A stretch of 25,453 nt of DNA, from positions 1 to 25,453 of IMG/VR virus record IMGVR_UViG_3300044716_000676; one strand, given 5' to 3'. Made by a program: the position numbers and the translations under genes. Shown one piece after another: positions 2,915 through 16,741 of the stretch; the stretch's first letter is position 1; each line of letters starts with the position of its first letter. The notes beneath the pieces were generated by a model that was given only the letters and a program-made list of their open reading frames with translations, had not been told where the DNA came from and did no database searches. Source of the stretch: a virus.

Positions 2915-4135
2915 ATGGACAATTTAATTTTTGTACAAATTGCATCATATAGAGATCCCGAATTAATTAAAACAATTGAGGACTGTATATCAAAAGCAAA
3001 AAATCCTGAAAAATTAAGATTTGGAATAGCATGGCAACACGACGAAAATGAAAATTTAAATGATTTCATAAATAATGAAAAATTTAAAATATTAGATATA
3101 CCATACAAAGAAAGCAAAGGTGTATGTTGGGCTAGAAACAAAGTAAACTTGTTATATTCCAATGAAGAATATACATTACAAATAGACTCTCATACTAGAT
3201 TTATACAAAACTGGGACGAGGAAATTATAAATCTATGGAAAGAATTGAAAAATGATAAGGCTATTTTGACATCATATCCACCGGAATATTATCCAGATAA
3301 ACCAGAAAATCAATGGAGTCAATCTTTGCATGTTATTCACACACATTCATTCAAAAATGGTCAAACGGAACAAAGACCAAGAACTCCATCGAATTGGCAA
3401 AATAGAACAACTCCATATAAAGCAATTCATGTTGCAGCTGGATTTATATTTGGAAAAGGTTCATATATAAAGGATGTCACATATGATCCAGAATTTTATT
3501 TTAGTGGAGAAGAAACAGCATTGGCAGTTAGGTTTTATACACATGGATATGATTTATACCATCCTCATAAAATAATAATATGGCATTATTATACTAGAAA
3601 AAATAATAAAAAACATTGGGATGATTGTTCAGAATGGGGAAAATATTCTATAAAAGCAACCGATAGATTAAATTGTTTATTGAATAGAAATAAAAATTAC
3701 AATTTAGGAATATATGGATTGGGAAATGTAAGAACACTGGAAGATTTTCAAAATTATTCTGGCATAGACTTTAAAAGAAACATATTACATTTAGATACAA
3801 AGGAAGGAAAAGAACCTCCGGTAGATTTAAATGATAAATATAAATGGTCTTATATTATTAAAAAATACAAGTATACCGCAAAATGGAACTGGAATGAAAT
3901 AGATCACAGCAAGGAATTGAGATTTATGGCATTCATTTTTAAAGATAAAAATGATCAGGAAATATATAGAAAAGATATAGATCAAAAAGAATGTTCTGAT
4001 ATTTTAAATGGTACAAAAACAGAATGTGATTTTGAATTTGAATATAATAGTCCAGAACAAGAACCAAAAATTCTTATAATTTGGCCATATAGCAAAGATT
4101 TAAATTGGTTAAATTTAACAAAAAAAGAAATTTAA
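2915..4135 (+). CDS. GlcNAc glycosyltransferase (PF11397-type)
   Basis: A 406-residue GT-A-type glycosyltransferase. The N-terminus FVQIASYRDPELIKTIEDC (6-24) followed by A-x-x-P-E-x-L-x-F-G-I is the signature of the GlcNAc family PF11397, which includes the Skp1 hydroxyproline GlcNAc transferase of Dictyostelium. The DxH metal motif is in DSHTRF (91-96). An FSGEE acceptor/catalytic motif is at 196-200, followed by the HP...WHYY stretch (216-226) typical of the family. Residues about 310-406 form an extra C-terminal domain that I cannot name. By family it would transfer GlcNAc from UDP-GlcNAc in the cytoplasm; acceptor and exact sugar are not shown by the sequence. Gaps of 1 nt on both sides place it in one operon with D and F. 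Confidence 0.85.
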   Translation: MDNLIFVQIASYRDPELIKTIEDCISKAKNPEKLRFGIAWQHDENENLNDFINNEKFKILDIPYKESKGVCWARNKVNLLYSNEEYTLQIDSHTRFIQNWDEEIINLWKELKNDKAILTSYPPEYYPDKPENQWSQSLHVIHTHSFKNGQTEQRPRTPSNWQNRTTPYKAIHVAAGFIFGKGSYIKDVTYDPEFYFSGEETALAVRFYTHGYDLYHPHKIIIWHYYTRKNNKKHWDDCSEWGKYSIKATDRLNCLLNRNKNYNLGIYGLGNVRTLEDFQNYSGIDFKRNILHLDTKEGKEPPVDLNDKYKWSYIIKKYKYTAKWNWNEIDHSKELRFMAFIFKDKNDQEIYRKDIDQKECSDILNGTKTECDFEFEYNSPEQEPKILIIWPYSKDLNWLNLTKKEI

Positions 4136-4136
4136 A

Positions 4137-5618
4137 ATGGAAAAACTAAAAAAGGACATGTTAATTGTTGTTCCTTATAGGAACAGAGAAAGAGACTTGG
4201 AAAAATTTTTAGAAAAAACTCCGGAATATTTCAATAAACAAAATTTAACATATGATATTTTAATATGTGAATTGGAACAAGATTGTTCTTGGAATGCAGG
4301 TATGCCCTGTAATTCATTGATAGACTTTATAAAAGATAAAGAATATGAATGGTTATATATTCATCATGTTGATATAACTCCAATAGAAGGTGAATGGAAA
4401 TTTCCAAATGCAAATGAAGTATATCACAATCTTGGTGATTACGGTAGCTGTTTAATGAAAATGGAAGTGTTTTTAAAAGTTGGCGGCTATTCAAATTCAT
4501 TTTGGGGATGGGGAGCAGAAGATAATGATCTATATGATAAACTAAGAAAACAAAATTTTAAAGTTGTAACATTAAATGAGTCTCATAGTGTAAAATATGA
4601 TACAGGATATCAAAATCATTCAAGAAATTTTGATGGAATAAATTATGCCAATAATCTTAAAACATTATATGTAATACCGGAAAATCAAAAAACTAATATA
4701 TATGATTTTTATAAAAATGCATATGTTAAAAATCTTACAACAATATCACCTAACATTTATAAACAAACGATTTTTCCTAAAATATTGTGTCCAAAAAAAC
4801 ATAAAAACGAAAACCTTTTAATCAGTTATTTAAAAAATCAAACCGATCCAAAAAACATGATGTCTTTTATTAAAAGTGCCATGATTTATTCTGGATATAG
4901 TTATGATTTAGTTATATGTGTAGCCGATAAAGATCCAGATAAATATCTTATAAATCAAATAGAAGCATTTGGAGCAAAGGTTTATTATCATGAAATAAAA
5001 CATGATAATATTTTTATAGATCGTTATCATGCATATAGAAATTTTTTAAATGATAACAAACATTATAAAAAAGTTTTGCACACGGATTGTCTGGATGTGA
5101 TATTTCAGTCTGATCCATTTATTCATATAAAAAATAATTTGATTATAAGTTCCGAAGAAATTTTAATTAAAAATGAAACATGGAATACTAATATATTTAA
5201 AGGAATTTATGCACAAAATATATATGACGAAATAAAAGAAAATTCGGTATTATGTGGTGGTGCTATAGGTGGAACATCAGATGCTTTTATTAATTTGTGT
5301 GATTCTATTATAGAAGAAAGTAAAAAATTAAAATTAAATGGAAATTATGGTTACGATCAACCAATTTTACAAAAATTAATATATTTGGATAAATTTGAAA
5401 TTGATGTTAAAAATTTTAACGATGGTTTTTGTTGCAATCTTCATGTATATTTTCATAATAAAGAAAAATTTAAAAATAAAATAACAATAAATAATGATTC
5501 TAAATTTTTTAATGAAAATAATAAAAAATTTTCAATAGTTCATCAATACAATAGAGATATAAAAATATATTCTAAAATATATAATCATTTTAACACCTAC
5601 TATTATCCTTTTTTTTAA
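4137..5618 (+). CDS. Two-domain glycosyltransferase: beta-1,4-GalT-like plus second GT
   Basis: A 493-residue fusion. Residues 1-180 match the beta-1,4-galactosyltransferase family (PF13733/PF02709): VVPYRNRERDL (11-21), a metal-site region HHVDITP (76-82), GDYGSCLMKMEVF with GGYSNSFWGWGAEDND (116-131), the diagnostic WGWGxEDxD block. The usual D-V-D is H-V-D here, so Asp79 would be the metal ligand. Residues about 225-445 are a second GT-A-like domain with VLHTDCLDVIFQSDPF (313-328), GGAIGGT (374-380) and GYDQP (405-409), as in bacterial and eukaryotic GTs carrying the TDxxDVxFQxDPF motif. With gene E it could build a Gal-GlcNAc type disaccharide and extend it; that pathway is inferred. Its stop lies 4 nt from the stop of convergent gene G, with no GC-rich terminator hairpin between them. 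Confidence 0.82.
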   Translation: MEKLKKDMLIVVPYRNRERDLEKFLEKTPEYFNKQNLTYDILICELEQDCSWNAGMPCNSLIDFIKDKEYEWLYIHHVDITPIEGEWKFPNANEVYHNLGDYGSCLMKMEVFLKVGGYSNSFWGWGAEDNDLYDKLRKQNFKVVTLNESHSVKYDTGYQNHSRNFDGINYANNLKTLYVIPENQKTNIYDFYKNAYVKNLTTISPNIYKQTIFPKILCPKKHKNENLLISYLKNQTDPKNMMSFIKSAMIYSGYSYDLVICVADKDPDKYLINQIEAFGAKVYYHEIKHDNIFIDRYHAYRNFLNDNKHYKKVLHTDCLDVIFQSDPFIHIKNNLIISSEEILIKNETWNTNIFKGIYAQNIYDEIKENSVLCGGAIGGTSDAFINLCDSIIEESKKLKLNGNYGYDQPILQKLIYLDKFEIDVKNFNDGFCCNLHVYFHNKEKFKNKITINNDSKFFNENNKKFSIVHQYNRDIKIYSKIYNHFNTYYYPFF

Positions 5619-5622
5619 AAAA

Positions 5623-8600
5623 TTATTCTCTAGTTGAATCGAACCAATTTATTTTATATAAATCGGTGTGAGCAGGAGTAATCTTCTTAATATTGCTTCT
5701 TATAGAATCTTCTATTAATTTTTTAACACTATCGTCTGCTTTTAAATTATGGATATTAATATTATAATATTTGCTCTTACTTGTTGGTAATTGCATTTGA
5801 AACCAATGTTTTATTTCTTCCACATAGTTTCTTTCTCCTATTGGAATATTCCACTTTAATGGACCTTTATCTATAGATAAATCGGATGCAAAATATATTT
5901 GTGAGATTTCTCCCTGTGTTAAAGATTTATTGTACATTAAAATTTGACCAATATCTCCAATTAGTTTATATGCATCCTCAACCTGAATTAAATCATTTAA
6001 TGTAGTATTTTTTATGTTTGATGCACCTACCAATAAGGATGATTTATAATCGTATTGTATTTGATATTTTGCTTTATCGAATTTTTCATCAGCTACTAAA
6101 ATAGTATCTATGTAATATTTTGCAGTACCATTTGTTGAATCAAAATTAAAAACAAAGTTATGCCAGCCCGGTGGAAGATCTTTAACATCATATGTCAATT
6201 TCAATAATCTTCCTTCTTTTCCATTTGCTGTTGCAATTTTAAATTTCCAACTTAAATTTTTATCTAATGATCCAAATTTTCTTAAAAATTGATAACTGCT
6301 AAAATCACCTAATGCTTTGAAATTATGGTTTTCTTTTACTGTTGCTAAATCTACTGTTAATAATCCATATAAACTTAATCTAGAAACTAATGCTCCTTCG
6401 GAATTTATTAGGTATGCTATTTTATCAGAATCATCAATTAATATAGCCAAGTCTTCGGTTTTATCAGATGTTTCCACGCATACTTTGCTTATTTTAGGTG
6501 TCTTGATAAAGTTTAAAAATCTAAACTGACCATTATATTCAAAACAATCTTCATCTATCAAAGCATTTTTTCCTATGCTTTTTGTAAATTCAAACCTGTC
6601 TTCGGTTATATTAAATTTTGTTATTTTATCTTTTTGATGAACCAACCATAAATTATTTTTAGCATCACAGCTTATTTGTTGCATTGGTCCTAGATTTGCA
6701 TATATCTGTTGGTCTTTATATAAATTTCCACCTATAACTTCCCATAAACTATTTTGATTATCGATACATGAAGTATTACCATAAGAGTATTTTAGATTAT
6801 CATCTAAATCTATTTCAATTCTTTTGTATTCTTTTGTGAGTATATTAGTTGATAATAAATTTCCTTCGGAATTAAGTTTTACTACTTTTTTATCTTTTAC
6901 ACAATATAGGTATAAATTTTCTTGAGAATCTATTTCTAGTTGATCTATATATGTTATATCGCTTAATTCTGTTACATCAACAGTTTTTTCAATTTTTCCT
7001 TCTATATTATATTTTCTTAGTATTCTATTATATGAATCTACCACCCAATAGCCGAAATCTATCAATCTTTGTATTATATTATTTTGACTATTTGGTTTAT
7101 ATGGAATAGATATATTATCTATATGAGAAAGTTTAAAATTTAAATTGAAAATATTTCCTGATGTGGAATCAACAACAGTAAAAAGAGGCGATGTTAAGGA
7201 AGATTCATTTATAAATCCAAATCCACTATCATAATAATTTCCTATTATTTGATCTCCGTTTATATTACCCCAATCTTCAACTCTTAACCATAAGGAAAGT
7301 GTTAAATGATTTTTTTCTAATAATACATTTTTAGCAGGAAATACTATATGGTTTTTTCCATTTAAATTTAAATATTCTCCTTTAAAATTTGAATCTTCGT
7401 TTCCAACTATGAAACCATCGTTTTTATATGGTGTATTGTCTATTAATGGTGAACTGGTAAAATTTGATATGTCCAATACTTTAGATCCTAGTGGATTGTA
7501 AAAATCTGAACTCAAATATGTCAAAAATGTTTTAGAATTTTCTTGTCCAGAACGGAAGTATATATACTGCCCACCGGGTTCAAAAAATAAAGACGATGGT
7601 TGATCCCAAACTTCAAAATCAACATCTGGATTTAACTTTTCGTTGTATAATAAATCAGTTGCGGCTAATGCTTTATCGGTTGTATAATAAGCGGAATTGA
7701 AATATCTATCCATCCACTTCTTTTGACCCATTGTATTTCCCGATAACCATGTACACAACCATGTTCCATCTAATCTAGGCATAGACGGAGGTTGTGGAAC
7801 ATTTGGCGTTAGCTCCTCGTATGATATCTGTCTAGTATATATTCTATCTGACACATAAGGCAATTCTCCATAATATGCCCCATCTTCGATCAATCCTGCA
7901 TCTTGTACCGATATTCTTTGAGTTGTTGGTGGAAAGTAAAAAACTGTGTTTCTATCAGTTTCAAATTTTTTTAAATATGTATTTGTAGTAAACCCTAAAT
8001 ATATATTTTCCAATCCATTTTCTTGATTGGTTCCAGAGAATATATTATTATATACTCTTCTAATCGATGGATAATCACCAATATAATCAACACCTCTAGA
8101 ATAATTGTATTCCGGTGTTTGATAATTTTTTAATCCATGTATTTGTAAATCATAATCTACCGTTTCGGTGATATCGTCAAATTTTGGATTTTTATATGGA
8201 AAAAATGATAAAAAATTTTGTTTATAATTTTCTTTTAAACTTTCTTCGGTTGGTATTAAATCTTTTTGGGATAATAATGGACTAGATTCATATATACAAA
8301 AATAACTATTTTTAATGCTATCGGATAACAAATTATTTCTTTTATATGATATAAAGTTTAATATATTAGAGTTTCCTAAAGAAGAATTTAAATTATATGA
8401 TACATTAGTAAGTGACAATATTCTATTTGAATTTATAGTTACTGCTTTTGTATAGTTACTATCATATGAAAATAATACTATGTTATCTTCACCCAAAAAA
8501 TAATTGAATTTTTGTGTATTTGAAGGCGGTGATATTCTAGATGAAAAAAATAAATTATTAGAATTATCGTAAGTTAAAACATTTCCGTTATATGATTCGA

Positions 8601-9003
8601 TTGAAATTGTATCATCATCGAATATTATTTTCATGGTATCTAAATATGAAAAGCTATTATTGTATGATTTATATAATATGTTTTTATTTTGATATGTTGA
8701 AAGTGTTAAAACAAAAGAATCTGTTGTTTTTAAAGGAGTTTCTATCTTAGAAAGATTTGTTAAAATCTCCGGAGAATTTTTGTCTTCAAACATATCTTGT
8801 CCTGATAAAAAATTAGTCAAAACAATTCCGGTTTTTTTATTTATTTTTATATCATTTGGATCTTTTAAAAATTCATATATATTTGATTTAAATCCATTAT
8901 TAAAAACAAAATATGTTTTTTTCATATTGATTTTATTACCCATTAAATTAAAATTAATGGGATACCAATATATATCTGATATTTTTTTTGAAGATAGTTC
9001 CAT
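5623..9003 (-). CDS. Large virion protein with LamG lectin fold interrupted by a beta-propeller
   Basis: 1126 residues and no signal peptide. Residues 1-500 are beta-rich and unrecognised. Residues about 505-625 look like the first half of a LamG/concanavalin-type domain (GEYLNLNGKNHIVFPA, LTLSLWLRVEDW). Residues about 640-900 then carry NHL-like blades (GYWVVDSYNRILRKYN; DSQENLYLYCVKDKKVVKLN; DAKNNLWLVHQKDKITKFN). The LamG pattern resumes at about 940-1040 (PPGWHNFVFNFDSTNGTAKYYID; GDIGQILMYNKSLTQGEI). The last 85 residues are a charged helical tail, perhaps for assembly. It is the last gene of the minus-strand virion run, 9 nt after gene H. The role as a carbohydrate-binding tail or baseplate component is inferred from fold and context; I cannot assign a T4 homologue. 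Confidence 0.78.
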   Translation of the reverse strand: MELSSKKISDIYWYPINFNLMGNKINMKKTYFVFNNGFKSNIYEFLKDPNDIKINKKTGIVLTNFLSGQDMFEDKNSPEILTNLSKIETPLKTTDSFVLTLSTYQNKNILYKSYNNSFSYLDTMKIIFDDDTISIESYNGNVLTYDNSNNLFFSSRISPPSNTQKFNYFLGEDNIVLFSYDSNYTKAVTINSNRILSLTNVSYNLNSSLGNSNILNFISYKRNNLLSDSIKNSYFCIYESSPLLSQKDLIPTEESLKENYKQNFLSFFPYKNPKFDDITETVDYDLQIHGLKNYQTPEYNYSRGVDYIGDYPSIRRVYNNIFSGTNQENGLENIYLGFTTNTYLKKFETDRNTVFYFPPTTQRISVQDAGLIEDGAYYGELPYVSDRIYTRQISYEELTPNVPQPPSMPRLDGTWLCTWLSGNTMGQKKWMDRYFNSAYYTTDKALAATDLLYNEKLNPDVDFEVWDQPSSLFFEPGGQYIYFRSGQENSKTFLTYLSSDFYNPLGSKVLDISNFTSSPLIDNTPYKNDGFIVGNEDSNFKGEYLNLNGKNHIVFPAKNVLLEKNHLTLSLWLRVEDWGNINGDQIIGNYYDSGFGFINESSLTSPLFTVVDSTSGNIFNLNFKLSHIDNISIPYKPNSQNNIIQRLIDFGYWVVDSYNRILRKYNIEGKIEKTVDVTELSDITYIDQLEIDSQENLYLYCVKDKKVVKLNSEGNLLSTNILTKEYKRIEIDLDDNLKYSYGNTSCIDNQNSLWEVIGGNLYKDQQIYANLGPMQQISCDAKNNLWLVHQKDKITKFNITEDRFEFTKSIGKNALIDEDCFEYNGQFRFLNFIKTPKISKVCVETSDKTEDLAILIDDSDKIAYLINSEGALVSRLSLYGLLTVDLATVKENHNFKALGDFSSYQFLRKFGSLDKNLSWKFKIATANGKEGRLLKLTYDVKDLPPGWHNFVFNFDSTNGTAKYYIDTILVADEKFDKAKYQIQYDYKSSLLVGASNIKNTTLNDLIQVEDAYKLIGDIGQILMYNKSLTQGEISQIYFASDLSIDKGPLKWNIPIGERNYVEEIKHWFQMQLPTSKSKYYNINIHNLKADDSVKKLIEDSIRSNIKKITPAHTDLYKINWFDSTRE

Positions 9004-9007
9004 TTAT

Positions 9008-9015
9008 AATACTTA
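9008..9015 (-). promoter_or_regulatory. TAAGTATT element before gene G start
   Basis: On the minus strand TAAGTATT sits 4 nt upstream of the ATG of G, and its TAA is the stop codon of gene H. The same 8-mer recurs at three other starts in this run. It is in ribosome-binding-site position but only TAAG could pair with the 16S 3' end. Confidence 0.45.
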
Positions 9016-9729
9016 ACTGTAAAAATCAGTTTCTAATAATTTATCTACTAATACCTCCGAGTTTATTTCTTGTACTGTTGTGTATGGTAATAAACAATTT
9101 ATATTATTTATTACTAAATTTTGATTCTTTTTTAATGTACTGCTAATTAAACCAAATTCTTCAGCATTTCCTCGTAATATAAAAGATACATTAAAACATC
9201 TGGTATCAAGATTATATGATATTTTACATGGTTCTATTGTTGGTTTTTTTGTAATAGTATTACTATAAATTAACTCTATATCATAAGAAAATTTTGTAGA
9301 ATATAAATTTTTTGTTATATCAAATTGTTTAATTTTTACGTTTATTTTAACTGATACAGAAGTCCAATATTTTATTTCATTATCAACGACATATATTTTT
9401 TTATTTATCTCATCCAACCAATAATCTGGATTAGATTCCATATTTGGTTTTAGTGTTAATCTATTATCATTATTTTCTGGTATTAATACATTTTCATTTT
9501 TTGATAATTTATCAAAAATATATCCTGATGCAGTTTCTATAAAAATAACATCATAAAAAAAGTCAAATCTTTTTATTTCATTATTAATCAATTCAAAATG
9601 AAAATCTGGATTTATAGTACTATATTTTAAATTTAAGGCTGATAATGCGTCAGTAGATGGTAAAATTTTACCACTAGGAGTTCTCATCCATATTTCACCG
9701 GATGTTTGATTCTCTATTAATTTATTCAT
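9013..9729 (-). CDS. Hypothetical structural protein (238 aa)
   Basis: I do not recognise this protein. It has no signal peptide or membrane segment. The N-terminus (GEIWMRTPSGKILPSTDALSAL) precedes alternating beta-type sequence, with SVSVKINVKIKQFDI and FNVSFILRGNAEEFGLI as the clearest strands. Two cysteines are present. It starts 2 nt after the stop of the 224-residue gene upstream and ends 9 nt before gene G, so all three are probably co-translated. Position between adhesins and a giant virion protein suggests a small tail or baseplate component or an adaptor that joins fibres to the tail. That role is context only. Confidence 0.7.
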   Translation of the reverse strand: MNKLIENQTSGEIWMRTPSGKILPSTDALSALNLKYSTINPDFHFELINNEIKRFDFFYDVIFIETASGYIFDKLSKNENVLIPENNDNRLTLKPNMESNPDYWLDEINKKIYVVDNEIKYWTSVSVKINVKIKQFDITKNLYSTKFSYDIELIYSNTITKKPTIEPCKISYNLDTRCFNVSFILRGNAEEFGLISSTLKKNQNLVINNINCLLPYTTVQEINSEVLVDKLLETDFYS

Positions 9730-9731
9730 AA

Positions 9732-10406
9732 CTATTTACAATCAGGATAATTTGGATTATTTTCAACTTCTTTTTGTTTATCGACAAAATCTATATTATA
9801 TGGATTTTCCACATTTTGATTTTGAAATGGTTTGAGTATATTATATGCTCTTCTAGATTTAGAAGAAAGGTCAACAATTGGTTCTATTACTGGTTTATTA
9901 TTCCAATTAACCACAACCGGAATGTAATAATTTGGATTTACCGATTCAAAAACATATAATATGTCGTTATTTACACCGAACATTCTTGTATATAGCAATT
10001 GTACTCTATCAAAAAATGCATTTGAATTTGTACCATCCATTATTGGAGCATTTAAATTTAATTTAAATTCAATTTTAGTAGGATTCGTTACTCCTAACTG
10101 ATAAACATTTGCACTAATTCCAAAAACTTGTGATGTGGCGGTTGATGTAATATAAAAAGTCTTATTGCATTTATAATTTCTTGGATCACCTATTTCATTT
10201 GGAAATGGTAGTGTTTCGGTTGTTGTTGATTTATAAAATAAATTTTGTGTCTTAATTTCATCATCAAATATATATTCAATTTTATATATTTTTTTAGAAA
10301 CAATTAATGACGATGGATTTATAGTTAATGATAATGGTGCATAATTACTTATCGTAGTGTTATGCAAAGAGGTTGTTAAATTTATTGTTTTTTCAAAATT
10401 TAGCAT
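9732..10406 (-). CDS. Hypothetical structural protein (224 aa)
   Basis: This is an unrecognised beta-rich protein. Residues 1-60 (MLNFEKTINLTT...; IYKIEYIFDDEIKTQNLFY) resemble an Ig/PKD-like strand pattern. The middle (about 80-165) continues in strands with VQLLYTRMFGVNNDILYVFE. The C-terminus is polar (KQKEVENNPNYPDCK). Its first 11 codons and their upstream leader are duplicated upstream of gene I (12446-12505), which makes the start at 10406 credible and shows that this gene lay next to the adhesin when the duplication occurred. TAAGTATT sits 6 nt before the ATG. The stop TAG is 2 nt from the next gene. A fibre-attachment or tail role is inferred from context. Confidence 0.72.
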   Translation of the reverse strand: MLNFEKTINLTTSLHNTTISNYAPLSLTINPSSLIVSKKIYKIEYIFDDEIKTQNLFYKSTTTETLPFPNEIGDPRNYKCNKTFYITSTATSQVFGISANVYQLGVTNPTKIEFKLNLNAPIMDGTNSNAFFDRVQLLYTRMFGVNNDILYVFESVNPNYYIPVVVNWNNKPVIEPIVDLSSKSRRAYNILKPFQNQNVENPYNIDFVDKQKEVENNPNYPDCK

Positions 10407-10435
10407 TTATATAATACTTAATAATAAGTGTTAAA
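10375..10435 (-). repeat. Duplicated leader plus 5' coding block, copy 1
   Basis: This 61-bp block covers the first 11 codons of the 224-residue gene plus about 29 nt of leader. It matches 12446-12505 with one substitution and a 1-nt indel. It is the native copy, because the coding sequence continues intact. Confidence 0.92.
10413..10420 (-). promoter_or_regulatory. TAAGTATT element before the 224-aa gene
   Basis: On the minus strand TAAGTATT sits 6 nt before the ATG at 10406. It overlaps a small inverted repeat, ACTTA-TTAT-TAAGT (10416-10429), so it could lie on one arm of a weak hairpin. Confidence 0.45.
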
Positions 10436-10447
10436 TTTTCTATTTTA

Positions 10448-12421
10448 TTATGTTAATGTTCTTGATACGGTTGTTTGATAACCACAATAACTATACGTAT
10501 TACCACTTCGACCACAAAAACATCCACCAAAGCATGGATCGCCATTAAATCCAGGTGGACAACCATCGGTAGGAGTATTGTCAGTACAAGTACAGTTAAC
10601 AATTCCGTTACAACCTGTTGATGTTGTTGTAACAATAATAACAGATATAGAAGTAGAACAGGTTGCATCGTTTATAGTAATTGTCATGATTTTAGTTCCT
10701 GCTGTTGATGTGGTGACAGTAAATGCTTGTGTTCCATATCCTTTGTATAAAACAAAATTTCCGGTTAAACTTGCTCCATTTATTTCACCTGTTGTAACTC
10801 CTGTTATAGTATATGATATATTTCCATCTCCTAATAATGATGTATCCAATCCAAAAGTCACAGTTGATCCATTTATAGTTTTAGTTAAACTATATAAGGT
10901 TGGATAAACTCTCCAATCTTTATTTTTTGCAATAATCCAATTACATGAACATGTTCCTGTATTATTATCTACATAAATGCTCCATTCTGGTGTTATGCTT
11001 GGTGGTTTTTGTGGAAGTTGATTAAATATGTCATTTAAATTTGTTGCTGACATATTGTTGTTTTTTATTACTATTGTTCTTGTTGTATTTTGTGTTAAAG
11101 AAATATTAGATAATCCACTTAAATTTCCACCTATATTATTAGATTCTAAATTTAATGTTTCCAATGATACACAAGAAGACACATTCAAACTACTTAAATT
11201 ATTAGCATAAAAATTGAGTGTTTTTAAACTAGAACAATTAGTCAAATTCAATGATACTACAGATTTTTTGATGCATGTCATTGTTTGTAACAATCTACAA
11301 TTTGATAAATCTATAGCACCACCAATATTGTTTGGTAAATTTACTATTATAGTAGTTAATGCCTGTCTAGGTTCTATATAAAGATCATTTGATTGTGTAG
11401 TAATTGTTACACCAGAACCATCCGATGGGGTAGTTGTTATAGAAGGCTGTGAACTCCATCCAGACCATAATACTGGCAATGTACCAGATCCGCTACTAGT
11501 ACATTGATAACCTCTCTCATCATTATTGATTTGAATTGTTGTAAAATCTGAACCATCTATCCAACATCCCCCTTGTCCACCATTACCAAAGCTGGTAGTT
11601 GAACCTTCTATACCATCTTCACCATCTTGTCCCCATGCTCCTCCGTCTCCACCGCTTCCGGTAAATATAGAAGCTCCATATATTACACCAGCTATACCCA
11701 AAGTTGGAACCGAACCATAACCTTGTCCGTTTCCTCCCTTTCCACCAGTGTATGTTGTACATTCTCTATATTTGGTATTGCATGTACCAACAGTTGAACC
11801 ATTACAAGCAGAAGCATTGGTATAATATTGACAAGAAGAACCACAAGCTGCTCCAACTGTACAGTCATTTGGAGTTGAGCAATAATTTCTTCCTTGACAA
11901 TTGAGTATGCAACATTTACCACAAAAAGAGGCTCCTCCACAATTTGTAGATGATGTTAATACTTCTGTTTTATATGCTCCACCACCACCGCCGCCTCCAC
12001 CGCCTCCACCATATATATTTCCATTATTGGTTATAATAAGGTTTCTTCTAGTGTATATAGCAGTTCCTCCTTTTCCACCATCAAAACCAGCAGTACTACC
12101 GCCTCCTATTGCACCAACTCCAGCTGCTCCTAATATTGAACCATTGTTAATTATTATAACCTGATCATATGATCTAAATGTACTTGCACTATCGGCTGGA
12201 ATAGTTATGGCTGGTGTTAATGGATTATTGGAATATACATTCACCCCTGAATTAATTGTGATTATACCTCTTAATTTTTTCCCACCGTTTCTATTCCAAT
12301 TAAATCTACTAGCTGCTCTAGTACTTATATATGTCCATAAATTTAAATTTTGTTGATCAGTAGTTATTGTATCAACTACTGTTAACCAACTACCATAATA
12401 TCCTAGTCCAAGAGATGCCAT
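10448..12421 (-). CDS. Polyglycine adhesin with Cys loop and leucine-rich repeats
   Basis: 657 residues. The N-terminus MASLGLGYYGSW is shared with paralogue J. Residues about 85-300 form a glycine-rich module: INNGSILGAAG, then YG(11) at 137-148, a loop of about 77 residues with 12 cysteines (161-221), GGKGGNGQGYG, GGDGGAWGQDG, and GGCWIDGSD with a Cys pair at 286/307. Such glycine motifs build the polyglycine-II sandwich of gp38-type phage adhesins (Salmonella phage S16), which form the receptor-binding tip. Residues about 366-442 are leucine-rich repeats (LNLTNCSSLKTLNFYANNL), about 508-586 an Ig/Calx-beta-like domain, and 603-646 a second Cys-rich tail with eight cysteines. It has the clearest Shine-Dalgarno in the window. 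It is probably a host-receptor binding protein; the receptor is unknown. Confidence 0.83.
   Translation of the reverse strand: MASLGLGYYGSWLTVVDTITTDQQNLNLWTYISTRAASRFNWNRNGGKKLRGIITINSGVNVYSNNPLTPAITIPADSASTFRSYDQVIIINNGSILGAAGVGAIGGGSTAGFDGGKGGTAIYTRRNLIITNNGNIYGGGGGGGGGGGAYKTEVLTSSTNCGGASFCGKCCILNCQGRNYCSTPNDCTVGAACGSSCQYYTNASACNGSTVGTCNTKYRECTTYTGGKGGNGQGYGSVPTLGIAGVIYGASIFTGSGGDGGAWGQDGEDGIEGSTTSFGNGGQGGCWIDGSDFTTIQINNDERGYQCTSSGSGTLPVLWSGWSSQPSITTTPSDGSGVTITTQSNDLYIEPRQALTTIIVNLPNNIGGAIDLSNCRLLQTMTCIKKSVVSLNLTNCSSLKTLNFYANNLSSLNVSSCVSLETLNLESNNIGGNLSGLSNISLTQNTTRTIVIKNNNMSATNLNDIFNQLPQKPPSITPEWSIYVDNNTGTCSCNWIIAKNKDWRVYPTLYSLTKTINGSTVTFGLDTSLLGDGNISYTITGVTTGEINGASLTGNFVLYKGYGTQAFTVTTSTAGTKIMTITINDATCSTSISVIIVTTTSTGCNGIVNCTCTDNTPTDGCPPGFNGDPCFGGCFCGRSGNTYSYCGYQTTVSRTLT
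12385..12421 (-). repeat. Conserved 37-bp 5' end shared by adhesins (copy in I)
   Basis: The first 37 nt of gene I match those of gene J (14604-14640) at 36 of 37 positions, coding MASLGLGYY(G/S)SW. The proteins diverge soon after. This is a plausible recombination anchor or a strongly conserved attachment segment. Confidence 0.9.
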
Positions 12422-12477
12422 TATGTTTCACCTCTTAAAATATTAGTTAAATTTATCGTTTTTTCAAAATTTAGCAT
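12421..12477 (-). pseudogene. 18-codon fragment of the 224-aa gene, coupled to gene I
   Basis: This mini-ORF reads MLNFEKTINLTNILRGET. Its first 11 codons copy the start of the 224-residue gene at 9732-10406, and its own leader is copied too. It ends in TAA that shares one base with the ATG of gene I (TAATG), so if it is translated it would couple to I. The Shine-Dalgarno of I lies inside it. It is best read as the scar of a tandem duplication; it could also act as a leader peptide. Confidence 0.7.
12429..12436 (-). promoter_or_regulatory. Strong Shine-Dalgarno of gene I
   Basis: AAGAGGTG lies 7 nt before the ATG at 12421. It is the only convincing Shine-Dalgarno I see at a start in this window; the other genes have A/T-rich leaders or TAAGTATT. 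Confidence 0.7.
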
Positions 12478-12505
12478 TTATTAATACTTAATAATAAGTG
12501 TTAAA
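12446..12505 (-). repeat. Duplicated leader plus 5' coding block, copy 2
   Basis: This 60-bp block nearly matches 10375-10435 but is followed by unrelated sequence after the 11th codon. It carries the same TAAGTATT and ACTTA-TTAT-TAAGT inverted repeat (12486-12499). It marks the junction between adhesins J and I. Confidence 0.92.
12483..12490 (-). promoter_or_regulatory. TAAGTATT element before the 18-codon fragment
   Basis: On the minus strand TAAGTATT sits 5 nt before the ATG at 12477. It was carried along with the duplicated leader block. Confidence 0.4.
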
Positions 12506-12516
12506 AGTTCTATAAA

Positions 12517-14640
12517 TTATCCAACTCTTCCTGCTACCGATGATCCGGATTGAGCATTAATTACATATGTTGCATCCGATAATAATTTTAAATAATATCC
12601 AGCAAGTCCAAAATTACCTCCTGTAACAGTTGCACTATAATTTCCTCCATTCGATCCATCTGTACCAAATGCTCCACCATTACCGCCAATTGTTGTGCTT
12701 CCACCAGTAGTTCCAGAACCAGAAAGGTTACCAGAACCTTGTCCTCTTCCACCATTTCCACCGTTGTAATCATCTCCTGTAATGGTACAGTTGCAAGTTT
12801 GTTGATAATGCCAAGTACATCTCCGATCACTCCAGCATTGCTTACCATCGTGTTCCCCTCTTCGGCAATAATTGTTGGCTCCTGTACCGGCAGTACACGT
12901 CCCTGTTTGACAGGATCCTCCAGTGGACCAACCTGCCCAACAGTCAGGTGCGCTGTTGCATTTGTCTTTATCGCAAGAATCTAAGCCCACACCATAACAT
13001 CCACCCCAGCTACAAGAAGTACTTTTAGTGCTATATCCACCGCCACCGCCACCTCCACCTCCACCGCCTTTTATGTTTCCATAGTTATTTAATGTTATGG
13101 GTGTTCCTGATGATATAGCAGTTCCACCATCTGAACCATTTGCGCCATTACCTGTTGTACCACTTCCACCCGATCCACCCGCACCATATATATTTCCGTA
13201 ATTTATTAGTGTTACTTTACTTCCTGTTGGCAATGCAGGTATTGTTAAAGCAGGATTTGATTCTGATGTAGAACCAACAGTTACACCGGAATTAACTGTT
13301 ATTATTAAATTCACCTTTTTAACTCCTTTCCAACCATTGGAGGTTAAAAATGTGTTTACACTGTTATAGTTATTGGTATCGGATGAAATTGTAATATTAA
13401 CAATATCATTTATAACTACACTAGCAGAAAGATTCTCTACAGTAGTTAATACTAATGTCTCAGTATCTTCGACTAAAGTATCAGTTGCTATATTTAATAT
13501 TAATGATGCCGTATTATTATTTATAGTAAAATTACCAAGTGAATTAGCACCATTTATATCTTGAGATGTTACACCAGAAATTGAATATGGTATTAATGTA
13601 CCATTTGCTACATTCGTTGTATTTAATGTGAATGTAACAGTAGAACCTTCATCTACATTTGATACACTTCTAGTTAAATTGTATGTCGGTACAAGAACCG
13701 GAGGTTTCGGTTTCGGTATTTGCACAACTTGATTGGACGAAGTACAAGCACCACCCAATTCAATATTTAATGATTTTATTGTTAAATATTCCGATCCATT
13801 AACCCAACATCCCCCTGTTCCTGCTATACCAGCATTTTTAGCATTACCATTAGTTCCAGCCTGACCAGCTTGACCCCATGTTCCCCCATTTCCTCCCTTT
13901 CCCCCGCCACCTATTCCGTTAGCCCCGATTCCATTAGATTGACCATAACCTTGACCATCTCCCCCATCTCCACCTTTGTTATTTATCCATGTTTTGGTTT
14001 TACATTGAACATATACCCCATTCAATCCTGTTGTGGGTGGATCACAGCAAGGTGGATTACAAAATCCTGTGCAACTATTACTAGAATAATAACAATGAAA
14101 ACCTCTGGTGTTGAACCATTGAGTTCCACATAAATTAACCGGACAGTCATCACAATTGCTTGCATCACAACATTGACAAACTACACTTGATCCGACTGTA
14201 TATGTTTCTATTCCGCCACCACCGCCACCACCGCCACCACCGCCACCATATATGTATCCATTATTTGTTAATATCACTCTGTTTCTAGTATATAAACCAG
14301 TTCCTCCGTTTATACCATCTTCTCCTTCGGTGGGTGTTTGATCTCCTTCTCCACCTGTTCCCTTTGCTCCACCCGCTCCTGCTATTATTCCATTATTTAT
14401 CAAATAAATTTCGTCATAAGAACGAAAAGATGCGGGAACACTTAATGCGGGTATCAATGGATTCGTTGAATAAACAGTATATCCCGCTGGTATAGTTATA
14501 AATGCTCTTAATTTTTTACTAGTATTGTTCCATCCACTATTAGATGTTATAAAATTATATAGATTGACATTGGCTTGAGTAGTTAGATTTAAAACAACAT
14601 TATACCAACTACTATAATATCCTAGTCCAAGAGATGCCAT
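12517..14640 (-). CDS. Adhesin with two polyglycine sandwich modules
   Basis: 707 residues, paralogous to gene I over the N-terminus. Module 1 (about 75-300) has G(12) at 132-143, a 79-residue loop with 12 cysteines (155-213), GGDGGDGQGYG, GGNGGTWGQAG, and GGCWVNGSE with Cys 278/299 spaced 21 apart as in I. Residues about 319-412 are an Ig/Calx-beta-like domain related to that of I. Module 2 (about 440-707) repeats the plan: LINYGNIYGAGG, G(11) at 525-535, a 91-residue loop with 12 cysteines (543-618), GGNGGRGQGSG, GGNGGAFGTDG. By analogy with gp38-type adhesins the glycine motifs form a polyglycine-II core and the loops contact the receptor. The start is 4 nt after the tail-fibre stop. A GGAG 18 nt upstream is too distant to be a convincing ribosome site. 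Confidence 0.85.
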   Translation of the reverse strand: MASLGLGYYSSWYNVVLNLTTQANVNLYNFITSNSGWNNTSKKLRAFITIPAGYTVYSTNPLIPALSVPASFRSYDEIYLINNGIIAGAGGAKGTGGEGDQTPTEGEDGINGGTGLYTRNRVILTNNGYIYGGGGGGGGGGGGIETYTVGSSVVCQCCDASNCDDCPVNLCGTQWFNTRGFHCYYSSNSCTGFCNPPCCDPPTTGLNGVYVQCKTKTWINNKGGDGGDGQGYGQSNGIGANGIGGGGKGGNGGTWGQAGQAGTNGNAKNAGIAGTGGCWVNGSEYLTIKSLNIELGGACTSSNQVVQIPKPKPPVLVPTYNLTRSVSNVDEGSTVTFTLNTTNVANGTLIPYSISGVTSQDINGANSLGNFTINNNTASLILNIATDTLVEDTETLVLTTVENLSASVVINDIVNITISSDTNNYNSVNTFLTSNGWKGVKKVNLIITVNSGVTVGSTSESNPALTIPALPTGSKVTLINYGNIYGAGGSGGSGTTGNGANGSDGGTAISSGTPITLNNYGNIKGGGGGGGGGGGYSTKSTSCSWGGCYGVGLDSCDKDKCNSAPDCWAGWSTGGSCQTGTCTAGTGANNYCRRGEHDGKQCWSDRRCTWHYQQTCNCTITGDDYNGGNGGRGQGSGNLSGSGTTGGSTTIGGNGGAFGTDGSNGGNYSATVTGGNFGLAGYYLKLLSDATYVINAQSGSSVAGRVG
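14604..14640 (-). repeat. Conserved 37-bp 5' end shared by adhesins (copy in J)
   Basis: Partner of 12385-12421; the copies differ at one base. The near-identity extends through the ATG and first codons but not into the upstream sequence. Confidence 0.9.
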
Positions 14641-14644
14641 ATCA

Positions 14645-16726
14645 TTATGATAATAAATCTCCTACAAGATACCAAGATGTACCAGTCCAATATGCACTTG
14701 CCGCTGAATTTGTAAATGCTAATTTTTTAAAATCGTTATTTGGTGTTGATAATATAGTAGGAAGGGGGGAACCTGCTGCTGCAAATTGTACAGTGGCAGC
14801 ACCTACTCTTATTACCGAAACTTGTGTTCCTGCTTTTAGACCAGTTGGTAATTGGATATTTATAGTAGTTGTTGCATGATCTGCCAAAATTGTTTTATCG
14901 TGATCATCTTGTGTTATCTGATAAGTTGCTGTTTTTGTTATAGGTGCATTTGGATCATTTTTTATTGTTCCGTTAACTACAAAAGAACCTGTTGTAGACA
15001 ATGTACCAAATACTGTAACGGCGTTAGCATCCGCTCTTAATTTTTCAACATTGTTTGCGAATAGTGATACTATACCATTTCCTGCTCCACCAGTTCCTAT
15101 TGGACTAAATAAACCAGTATCACCATCAGATCCAAAAGCATAACCATTGGTTGATGAATCAACATTAGATGGTGAACCTTGATTTGATCTAAATCCAGTA
15201 GCCGAAACTCTTCCATTTACTGTTAATTTTTCGGATGGTGTAGTAATTCCAATACCAACATTTCCAGAAGGAGCTATTCGCATCGCCTCTTGTTCTGTTG
15301 ATACTAAAAATTGTATATCCGCATTAGCATGATTTGTTGCCAGTTTTAAATCTAAATTATCATGATTCCAACTTAAATAAGAACCATAAGGATTTGTTGG
15401 TCCTCCCATTACAACACCAGCATAATTTGAATTTGGGGATAATAATGATATATAACAATTAGCATTATTTTCAAATACTCCAACACTATTAGCCTGTGCT
15501 GTTACCGTACCCGCTGAACCATTTTTTACGTGTAATAATCCTTCTGGTGATGTTTCCCCAATTCCAACCTTTCCATCACACAATATACGCATCTTTTCTG
15601 TTGCATTAGTTCTAAAAATTATTGGATTACAATTTTGTTGATCTATTATAAATGAACCACCAAATGATCTAATCCAATTATCAGCTGCTCCATTTCTAAT
15701 AAATTCTAAAGCATTTACTCCTGTGCCAAGAGCTATTCTAACATCTCCAGTAGTCGTTCCATCAGTAACATGTAATTTTTGAGATGGTGACATTGTTCCT
15801 ATTCCAACAAAACCATTATCATTAAAAACTATATCGTCACCATTTGCATCTATAAAATGAGCAATTGGTTCTGATCCGGATTGAGTAACTTTTAATGCAG
15901 GACCAGTTCCGGTATTTTCAATTGTCATTGCGGATGTAACTTGTACTTTGGTATCCAAATATGTATATGCTCCCAATACAGTTAAATCTTTTGCGATTGT
16001 TACACTGCCACATACATTTAAATTTTTTGCAATACCAACACCACCATCAACTACCAATGCACCTGTTGTACAAGATGTGCTTTCTGTGTCATTGTTTAAA
16101 TCTAATCGCCCACAAATATTAAGATTTTTTGCAATACCAACACCACCATCAACTACCAATGCGCCAGTTGTACAAGAAGTGCTTTCTTCTGTTCCATTTA
16201 TATTAACAGTGCTAGTGTCAGCAGTACTACCAATTTCTATATTTGTAGCATTTCCACCGAAATGAATAGTTGTGGTTGGTGATGTGTTTAAAAGATAAAA
16301 AGTCGATGTAGAAGCTGTTAAATCTCCACCGTCTATTTCCACATCACCCGTAACATTTAAATTTCCATTCAAATTTGTATTTCCCAATACATCCAAAACA
16401 TAAGTAGGGGTTATAGAATTTGTATTTATACCAACTGTACCGTGCATTATGTTTTTACCAAATGCAGTAGAAAGAGGAGTATTAAAACTAAATGCAGCTA
16501 AACCAATTTCTCCACCAATAGTACGAATACCTGTTTTTGATGAATAAAAATATCCCGCATATGCACTTGCTGGTGCTACTGCGCACAATGCGCCTTGTAA
16601 TGAAAAATCTCCAAGAAACGGTTGATCTGGACTTGCTATCGGATCATGTGAAGCATCCGGATTGGTAGGATTTCCGTATGTGTGATGGTTTTTTCTGTGA
16701 TATTTCGAGTGAAATCTATTGCTCAT
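14645..16726 (-). CDS. Phage tail fibre protein (VGIGT-repeat type)
   Basis: 693 residues. The His/Pro-rich N-terminus (HRKNHHTYG; NPDASHDPIASPDQPFLGDF) resembles the attachment end of marine phage fibres. Shaft repeats follow: TVGINTNSITPTYVLDV (97-113), FVGIGTMSPSQKLHV (306-320), KVGIGETSPEGLLHV (386-400) and NVGIGITTPSEKLTV (489-503). Two copies of STSCTTGALVVDGGVGIAKN sit 34 residues apart, at 182 and 216. These TGALVV-GGVGI and VGIG-T-SP motifs are classic for trimeric beta-structured phage tail fibres. The C-terminus (TATYQITQDDHDKTIL...AYWTGTSWYLVG) is a common fibre end; no endosialidase chaperone domain is present. It precedes the adhesins J and I, which could sit at its tip as gp38 does on gp37. 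TAAGTATT lies 7 nt before the ATG. Confidence 0.9.
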   Translation of the reverse strand: MSNRFHSKYHRKNHHTYGNPTNPDASHDPIASPDQPFLGDFSLQGALCAVAPASAYAGYFYSSKTGIRTIGGEIGLAAFSFNTPLSTAFGKNIMHGTVGINTNSITPTYVLDVLGNTNLNGNLNVTGDVEIDGGDLTASTSTFYLLNTSPTTTIHFGGNATNIEIGSTADTSTVNINGTEESTSCTTGALVVDGGVGIAKNLNICGRLDLNNDTESTSCTTGALVVDGGVGIAKNLNVCGSVTIAKDLTVLGAYTYLDTKVQVTSAMTIENTGTGPALKVTQSGSEPIAHFIDANGDDIVFNDNGFVGIGTMSPSQKLHVTDGTTTGDVRIALGTGVNALEFIRNGAADNWIRSFGGSFIIDQQNCNPIIFRTNATEKMRILCDGKVGIGETSPEGLLHVKNGSAGTVTAQANSVGVFENNANCYISLLSPNSNYAGVVMGGPTNPYGSYLSWNHDNLDLKLATNHANADIQFLVSTEQEAMRIAPSGNVGIGITTPSEKLTVNGRVSATGFRSNQGSPSNVDSSTNGYAFGSDGDTGLFSPIGTGGAGNGIVSLFANNVEKLRADANAVTVFGTLSTTGSFVVNGTIKNDPNAPITKTATYQITQDDHDKTILADHATTTINIQLPTGLKAGTQVSVIRVGAATVQFAAAGSPLPTILSTPNNDFKKLAFTNSAASAYWTGTSWYLVGDLLS
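16022..16085 (-). repeat. 64-bp direct repeat in tail fibre, copy 1
   Basis: Near-identical to 16124-16187, offset 102 bp (34 codons), encoding TSCTTGALVVDGGVGIAKN. Only a few bases differ, so the duplication is recent or homogenised. Confidence 0.9.
16124..16187 (-). repeat. 64-bp direct repeat in tail fibre, copy 2
   Basis: Second copy of the in-frame 34-codon shaft repeat unit; see 16022-16085. Confidence 0.9.
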
Positions 16727-16733
16727 ATTTTTA

Positions 16734-16741
16734 AATACTTA
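16734..16741 (-). promoter_or_regulatory. TAAGTATT element before tail fibre start
   Basis: On the minus strand TAAGTATT sits 7 nt before the ATG at 16726. Its TAA is the stop codon of gene L, the same arrangement as at the H/G junction. Confidence 0.45.

Follow-up and report, generated by a model that had tools for sequence, protein, structure and literature searches.

A stranded gene head marks a recombination joint between two adhesin genes in a putative tail-fibre tip locus of a T4-like phage

Introduction

The gp38 receptor-binding adhesins of T2/S16-type phages are characterized by glycine-rich motifs and a PGII sandwich (PMC12892980). Duplications of adhesin domains in T4 change host range (Tetart 1996, as cited in PMC2248197); tandem duplications of 1.8 kb were described in the tail fibre of phage EfV12-phi1 (PMC6365445), and Alteromonas phages are reported to share host recognition modules (PMC10579305).

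The locus considered here resembles the gp38 system of T2/S16-type phages in several respects: an adhesin gene immediately follows that for a distal fibre, there are polyglycine runs, the first adhesin, J, matches the Pfam family GP38, and the T4-type capsid protein Gp23 is encoded in longer related contigs of this locus. It differs from that system in having two successive adhesin genes in place of one, in the presence of two gp38-like modules in J, in the score of the second adhesin, I, which is under the Pfam cut-off, and in the gene that comes next in order, g224. Between J and I there is a short fragment that an earlier sequence-only reading of the same DNA had interpreted as the scar of a tandem adhesin duplication. 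The fragment is a recombination joint carrying the stranded head of g224; its likely history is the subject of this paper.

Results

The locus and its genes

The stretch of DNA analysed, called the window below, is a complete virus record of 25,453 bp. The genes of interest lie on the minus strand in the order g974, g1896, g693 (fibre), J (707 aa), I (657 aa), g224, g238 and g1126; all features described below are on this strand unless marked otherwise. Gene g693 (14645–16726), upstream of the adhesins, codes for a distal tail-fibre protein: among the PHROG families it matched two for tail fibres, phrog_9942 (4.5e-15) and phrog_18345 (1.8e-14), and tblastn with g693 matched tail fibres of cyanophage and Pelagibacter phage. 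J starts 4 nt after the end of g693, directly after the fibre gene as in the gp38 gene order, with g693 as the putative gp37-type gene. T4-type major capsid protein Gp23 was found encoded in four of the six relatives' contigs searched (E < 1e-90). Given this, together with the GP38 and tail-fibre matches, we interpret the locus as the region for the tip of the tail fibre in an uncultured T4-like phage. Named phages did not match the region in DNA searches, nor J or g224 in protein searches.

J (12517–14640), the adhesin of slot 1, has two gp38-like polyglycine modules and, between them, a putatively Calx-beta-like linker, a name that does not come from a family match. J matched Pfam GP38 (PF05268) in two stretches with 38 bits (cut-off 25, E 2.1e-9) as well as phrog_2056 'tail fiber protein; host specificity'; a search of solved structures with the J sequence returned no adhesin and nothing useful. 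I (10448–12421), the adhesin of slot 2, has a gp38-like polyglycine module and an exchangeable C-terminus. It is related to J and matched phrog_10745 (6.2e-21) and also phrog_2056; its GP38 score, 22.1 bits, is under the cut-off of 25, and we class I as gp38-like only. All adhesins of the group start with MASLGLG(Y/F)Y (VASLGLG in one). At the DNA level the first 27 nt of I (12395–12421) exactly repeat the first 27 nt of J (14614–14640); this identity would permit exchange of a slot, and also a deletion of the kind that one relative, L010, appears to show. The C-terminus of I (10448–10650 in the window; compared with L006, L007, L009 and L010) occurs in at least three types, just before the near-constant g224 leader.

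Gene g224 (9732–10406) stands directly after the last adhesin and codes for a conserved protein, with relatives at 36–94% identity; it has no Pfam or PHROG match, and the genome contigs searched for g224 relatives contained none. Further downstream, g1126 carries a C-terminal extension in L006 (11410–15633) and L010 (11405–14947), with segments 46–55% identical to the J linker (∼residues 299–412); thus, a Calx-beta-like module would be common to an adhesin and another tail gene.

At the other end of the window, on the plus strand, positions 1–1666 code for a protein cut by the contig edge, of which the listed ORF (596–1666) is the end; it has ∼180 residues of (S/T/D/N)TPT repeats, after which comes a tail that is rich in cysteine and includes repeats such as GCTDPCASNFNPNATCDNGSC. 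Between this gene and the tail genes there are two glycosyltransferase genes (2915–5618, plus strand; Pfam GlcNAc 9e-73, Glyco_transf_7C 7e-13), whose products perhaps decorate the Thr/Pro-repeat protein or the host surface.

A copy of the g224 head between J and I

The intergenic region between J and I (12422–12516) has 95 bases and contains the joint. The earlier reading had stated that the leader of g224 recurs here together with the first 11 codons, and we saw that the repeat is real: positions 12446–12513 align with the parent copy, 10375–10443, with 65 identities in 68 aligned bases, one 1-nt gap and a local score of 60, against a maximum of 30 in 1000 shuffles. The copy extends to 12513, beyond the end at 12505 assigned to it before. 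The core ATGCTAAATTTTGAAAAAACNATAAATTTAAC occurred in the window at two sites only, namely in the two repeat copies; the reversed control pattern gave 0 occurrences.

With the core at these two sites only and an alignment score far over the shuffles, a chance repeat was rejected. An assembly error was rejected as well, because two further contigs, L006 and L013, have the same order of J, fragment and I. We also rejected the idea that the fragment is a regulatory cassette repeated through the genome: the complete leader is found only at g224 and in the fragment (one to two copies per relative), and only its TAAGTATT core recurs.

The fragment forms an ORF of 18 codons, MLNFEKTINLTNILRGET plus stop (12421–12477), whose TAA overlaps the ATG of I (TAATG), as had been reported. 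All 57 bases of the ORF are identical in L006; over the whole 95-nt region L006 differs by one substitution and one short indel.

Origin of the ORF tail

The ORF had been described as formed by the start of g224. This holds for its first 11 codons; the last seven do not come from g224. Past codon 11, the ORF agrees with the continuation of g224 at 8–9 of 24 bases (shuffle p 0.18–0.36), on par with shuffles, and a g224 origin of the tail was therefore rejected. The 3′ part, TNILRGET followed by the stop (12421–12447), is apparently homologous to the last eight codons and stop of a short slot-1 adhesin of 307 aa, J′, which ends in TNVLGGQS. Compared with J′ ends (TNVLGGQS or TNILGGQS, each with its stop) the tail scored 25–26 with BLOSUM62; the next best of 105 distinct C-termini scored 12. 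Nucleotide identity to the J′ end is 16–17 of 24 (shuffle p 2.5e-5 to 1e-4, or 0.002–0.006 if the GAGG letters are left out). Since unrelated 24-mers in these AT-rich sequences also reach 16–17 of 24 by chance, it is the frame, the position and the stop overlap with I that argue for a J′ origin; all of them agree with the J′ end, as does the GAGG (12431–12434), a predicted Shine–Dalgarno-like site for I located in the same place as in J′.

Thus, the ORF is probably a chimera of a g224 head and a J′-type tail, the two sides of the joint having three bases, AAC, in common. The J′ origin of the tail appears well supported, although on eight codons. The part derived from g224 is ∼95% identical to its parent and the tail ∼70% identical to known J′ ends; hence the source of the tail would be a J′ allele more distant than these, or the J′ assignment is mistaken. 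A pattern scan of viral contigs found no full adhesin ending in TNILRGET.

Three states of the locus in relatives

A scan with g224 gave close relatives (L003–L010), two distant ones (L011, L012) and a partial contig (L013); a scan with g693 added an outgroup, L020, ∼70% identical. The locus was seen in three states. The first, in L010, is g693–I–g224, with a single adhesin and without the fragment; it appears to have arisen by deletion between adhesin starts. The second, g693–J′–I–g224, with a J′ of 306–307 aa and again without the fragment, is present in L003, L004, L005, L007, L008, L009 and L020; the stop of J′ overlaps the start of I as TAATG (TAGTG in L020). The six relatives in this state represent at least four distinct sequences, to which L020 is added; L003, L004 and L005 look alike here, so the number of independent cases is below seven. 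The third state, g693–long J–fragment–I–g224, was observed in the window, L006 and L013. As the last two are identical in slot 1, there are two distinct fragment sequences in all.

The sequence-only reading had predicted that relatives would be found in which an adhesin is directly followed by g224, and that a single-adhesin locus would not have the fragment; both predictions were borne out, the latter by L010. Pattern scans for the ORF matched, beyond the window, only L006 and L013, both with long J; conservation as an independent small gene, outside the duplication context, was not seen in these scans. The fragment follows the long-J allele of slot 1 and not the two-adhesin state. In the distant contigs L033 and L034 g224 comes immediately after a fibre-like gene, and the polyglycine adhesins are absent from between the two (in L033, a 177-kb contig, at 6203–10654).

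A tree of the N-terminal 310–330 aa of the adhesins, in which several inner forks are open and from which we used the grouping alone, placed J′ (with its L020 member), I (with its L020 member) and long J in three separate groups. By this grouping J, J′ and I are three old lineages; the split between J′ and I predates L020, because each of the two groups includes an L020 protein. With the tree, and with the pair present in the outgroup L020 without the fragment, the two-adhesin pair is older than the fragment.

The kinship of slot 1 conflicts with that of its neighbours. In slot 1 the window shares 94% identity with L006 and 69% with L003, whereas the values for I are 95% with L003 and 88% with L006, and those for g1126 98% with L003 and 90% with L006. 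Nucleotide identity between J and the J′ of L003 is 97% over the first 30 alignment columns and falls to ∼62% by columns 60–90. The behaviour of slot 1 is therefore that of an allele which can be exchanged and carries its joint along.

Discussion

The sequences show the repeat, its restriction to long-J loci, the older two-adhesin state that was free of it and the conflict of kinship between slot 1 and its neighbours. We consider it probable that a J-bearing piece ending in the head of g224 was joined to a J′-type tail ahead of I, and that the product spread as an allele. J, or at least its 3′ half, would most likely have come from a phage with J as the last adhesin, directly before g224, since the homology to g224 begins within a few bases of the J stop. 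At least three C-terminal types of I, the adhesin of the last slot, precede the same g224 leader. The piece ending in this leader and 11 codons would have been joined, with AAC as the shared bases, to the final eight codons of a J′-type gene directly before I. The resulting ORF would consist of MLNFEKTINLT from g224 and TNILRGET plus stop from the old slot-1 adhesin, with the Thr at the joint belonging to both; the old lead-in to I, its GAGG and overlapping TAATG included, would have been kept. Long J and its joint are now inherited and exchanged as one slot-1 allele, alternating with the short J′ allele. The donor order, with J directly before g224, and the sequence of events are what we infer; a donor of this kind was not found among 2.9 million viral contigs.

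A joint of this structure, linking the right end of a unit (the g224 head) to its left end (the J′-type tail) directly before I, is what a tandem duplication or an unequal crossover makes, and to this extent the duplication scar proposed earlier stands. In a corrected form of that proposal, a phage with J′–I–g224 would have duplicated in situ a segment that began in the final codons of J′, included I and stopped at codon 11 of g224. The resulting order would be J′–I1–joint–I2–g224, and long J would have arisen later through fusion or replacement of J′ and I1. Such a history would leave the same joint, and J does have a J′-like start, a first module with an I-like end (CW..GS...CTSS) and a Calx-beta-like segment in common with I (33–44% identity); L010, too, resembles a deletion between adhesin starts. 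We still find this route unlikely: most of I1 would have had to be replaced after the doubling, the N-terminal 310 aa of J do not group with the I lineage, and nothing in the C-terminal half of I corresponds to the second gp38-like module of J. Duplication of an adhesin with the start of g224 as the very origin of the two-adhesin state, followed by divergence of J and I, is highly improbable, even though the single-adhesin L010 has its adhesin directly before g224 and is free of the fragment, as such an ancestor should be. The fragment is no marker of how the pair arose: it is absent from seven two-adhesin loci (six relatives and L020), and the split between J′ and I is older than L020. That the two copies then diverged does not fit either: the J and I proteins are 43% identical, yet the stranded DNA still agrees with g224 at 65 of 68 bases, so that the flanking adhesins, members of separate old lineages in the tree, are not mutual copies as young as the joint, nor is J a diverged copy of I.

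What the fragment does at present is a separate matter, compatible with its origin in the recombination that joined long J to the J′-type tail. Its leader includes one of four copies of the motif TAAGTATT in the window (16734–16741, 12483–12490, 10413–10420 and 9008–9015), each just before a start codon, of g693, the ORF, g224 and g1126, respectively, and none elsewhere. The motif may signal a start or a promoter in this phage group, and the fragment could be maintained because it works: TAAGTATT and the ATG would start translation of the ORF, and ribosomes would restart on I through TAATG. The 57 nt of the ORF are unchanged in L006, while J differs at 38 of 351 fourfold sites (dS 0.14); for the two changes in the 95-base region, P from a Poisson estimate made by hand is low with the fourfold rate (∼0.002) but not with the overall J rate (∼0.08). 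On the other hand, two distinct fragment sequences are too few for the claim of a working ORF, the enrichment of TAAGTATT in a 114-kb relative is modest (10 TAAGTATT-N(0–10)-ATG sites versus 3 for the control), and a hairpin over the start of I in the window is not kept in L006 (z 0.13), for which reason a conserved hairpin hiding this start was rejected. A working role is doubtful. One could speculate, with slightly less confidence again, that the scar turned into a translated lead-in setting the amount of I relative to J, and that g224 leaders serve as portable boundaries for tail-tip swaps. The genes that follow the TAAGTATT copies have no obvious Shine–Dalgarno site.

Adhesin genes diverge fast and joints of their rearrangements are usually unreadable; here the constant neighbour g224 left a readable label. 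It allows partial reconstruction of the order of events in the tail-tip cassette of an uncultured T4-like family: a fibre gene followed by g224 without an adhesin (L033), J′–I pairs, the apparent loss of one adhesin (L010) and the import of a two-module adhesin. The locus also shows that the two-gene adhesin array is older than one would conclude from the fragment and that slot 1 can be exchanged; the joint is a record of how this phage family swaps its host-recognition genes. In a small sample of the literature on exchange of receptor-binding genes we found no stranded 5′ end of a neighbour gene forming a chimeric mini-ORF.

In comparison with the T4 and EfV12-phi1 duplications, the locus is alike in having a duplication-type joint at host-recognition genes. 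Those duplications affect domains or segments within one gene and were seen in host-range mutants or coevolution experiments, whereas the joint described here is intergenic, unites unlike alleles and is inherited as an allele. It shares with modular exchange of receptor-binding genes, as in the Alteromonas phages, the conflict in kinship between slot 1 and its neighbours and the swapping of C-termini before a constant leader. The case is thus a tail-tip rearrangement of a known kind, ordinary for phages, with an unusually clear joint.
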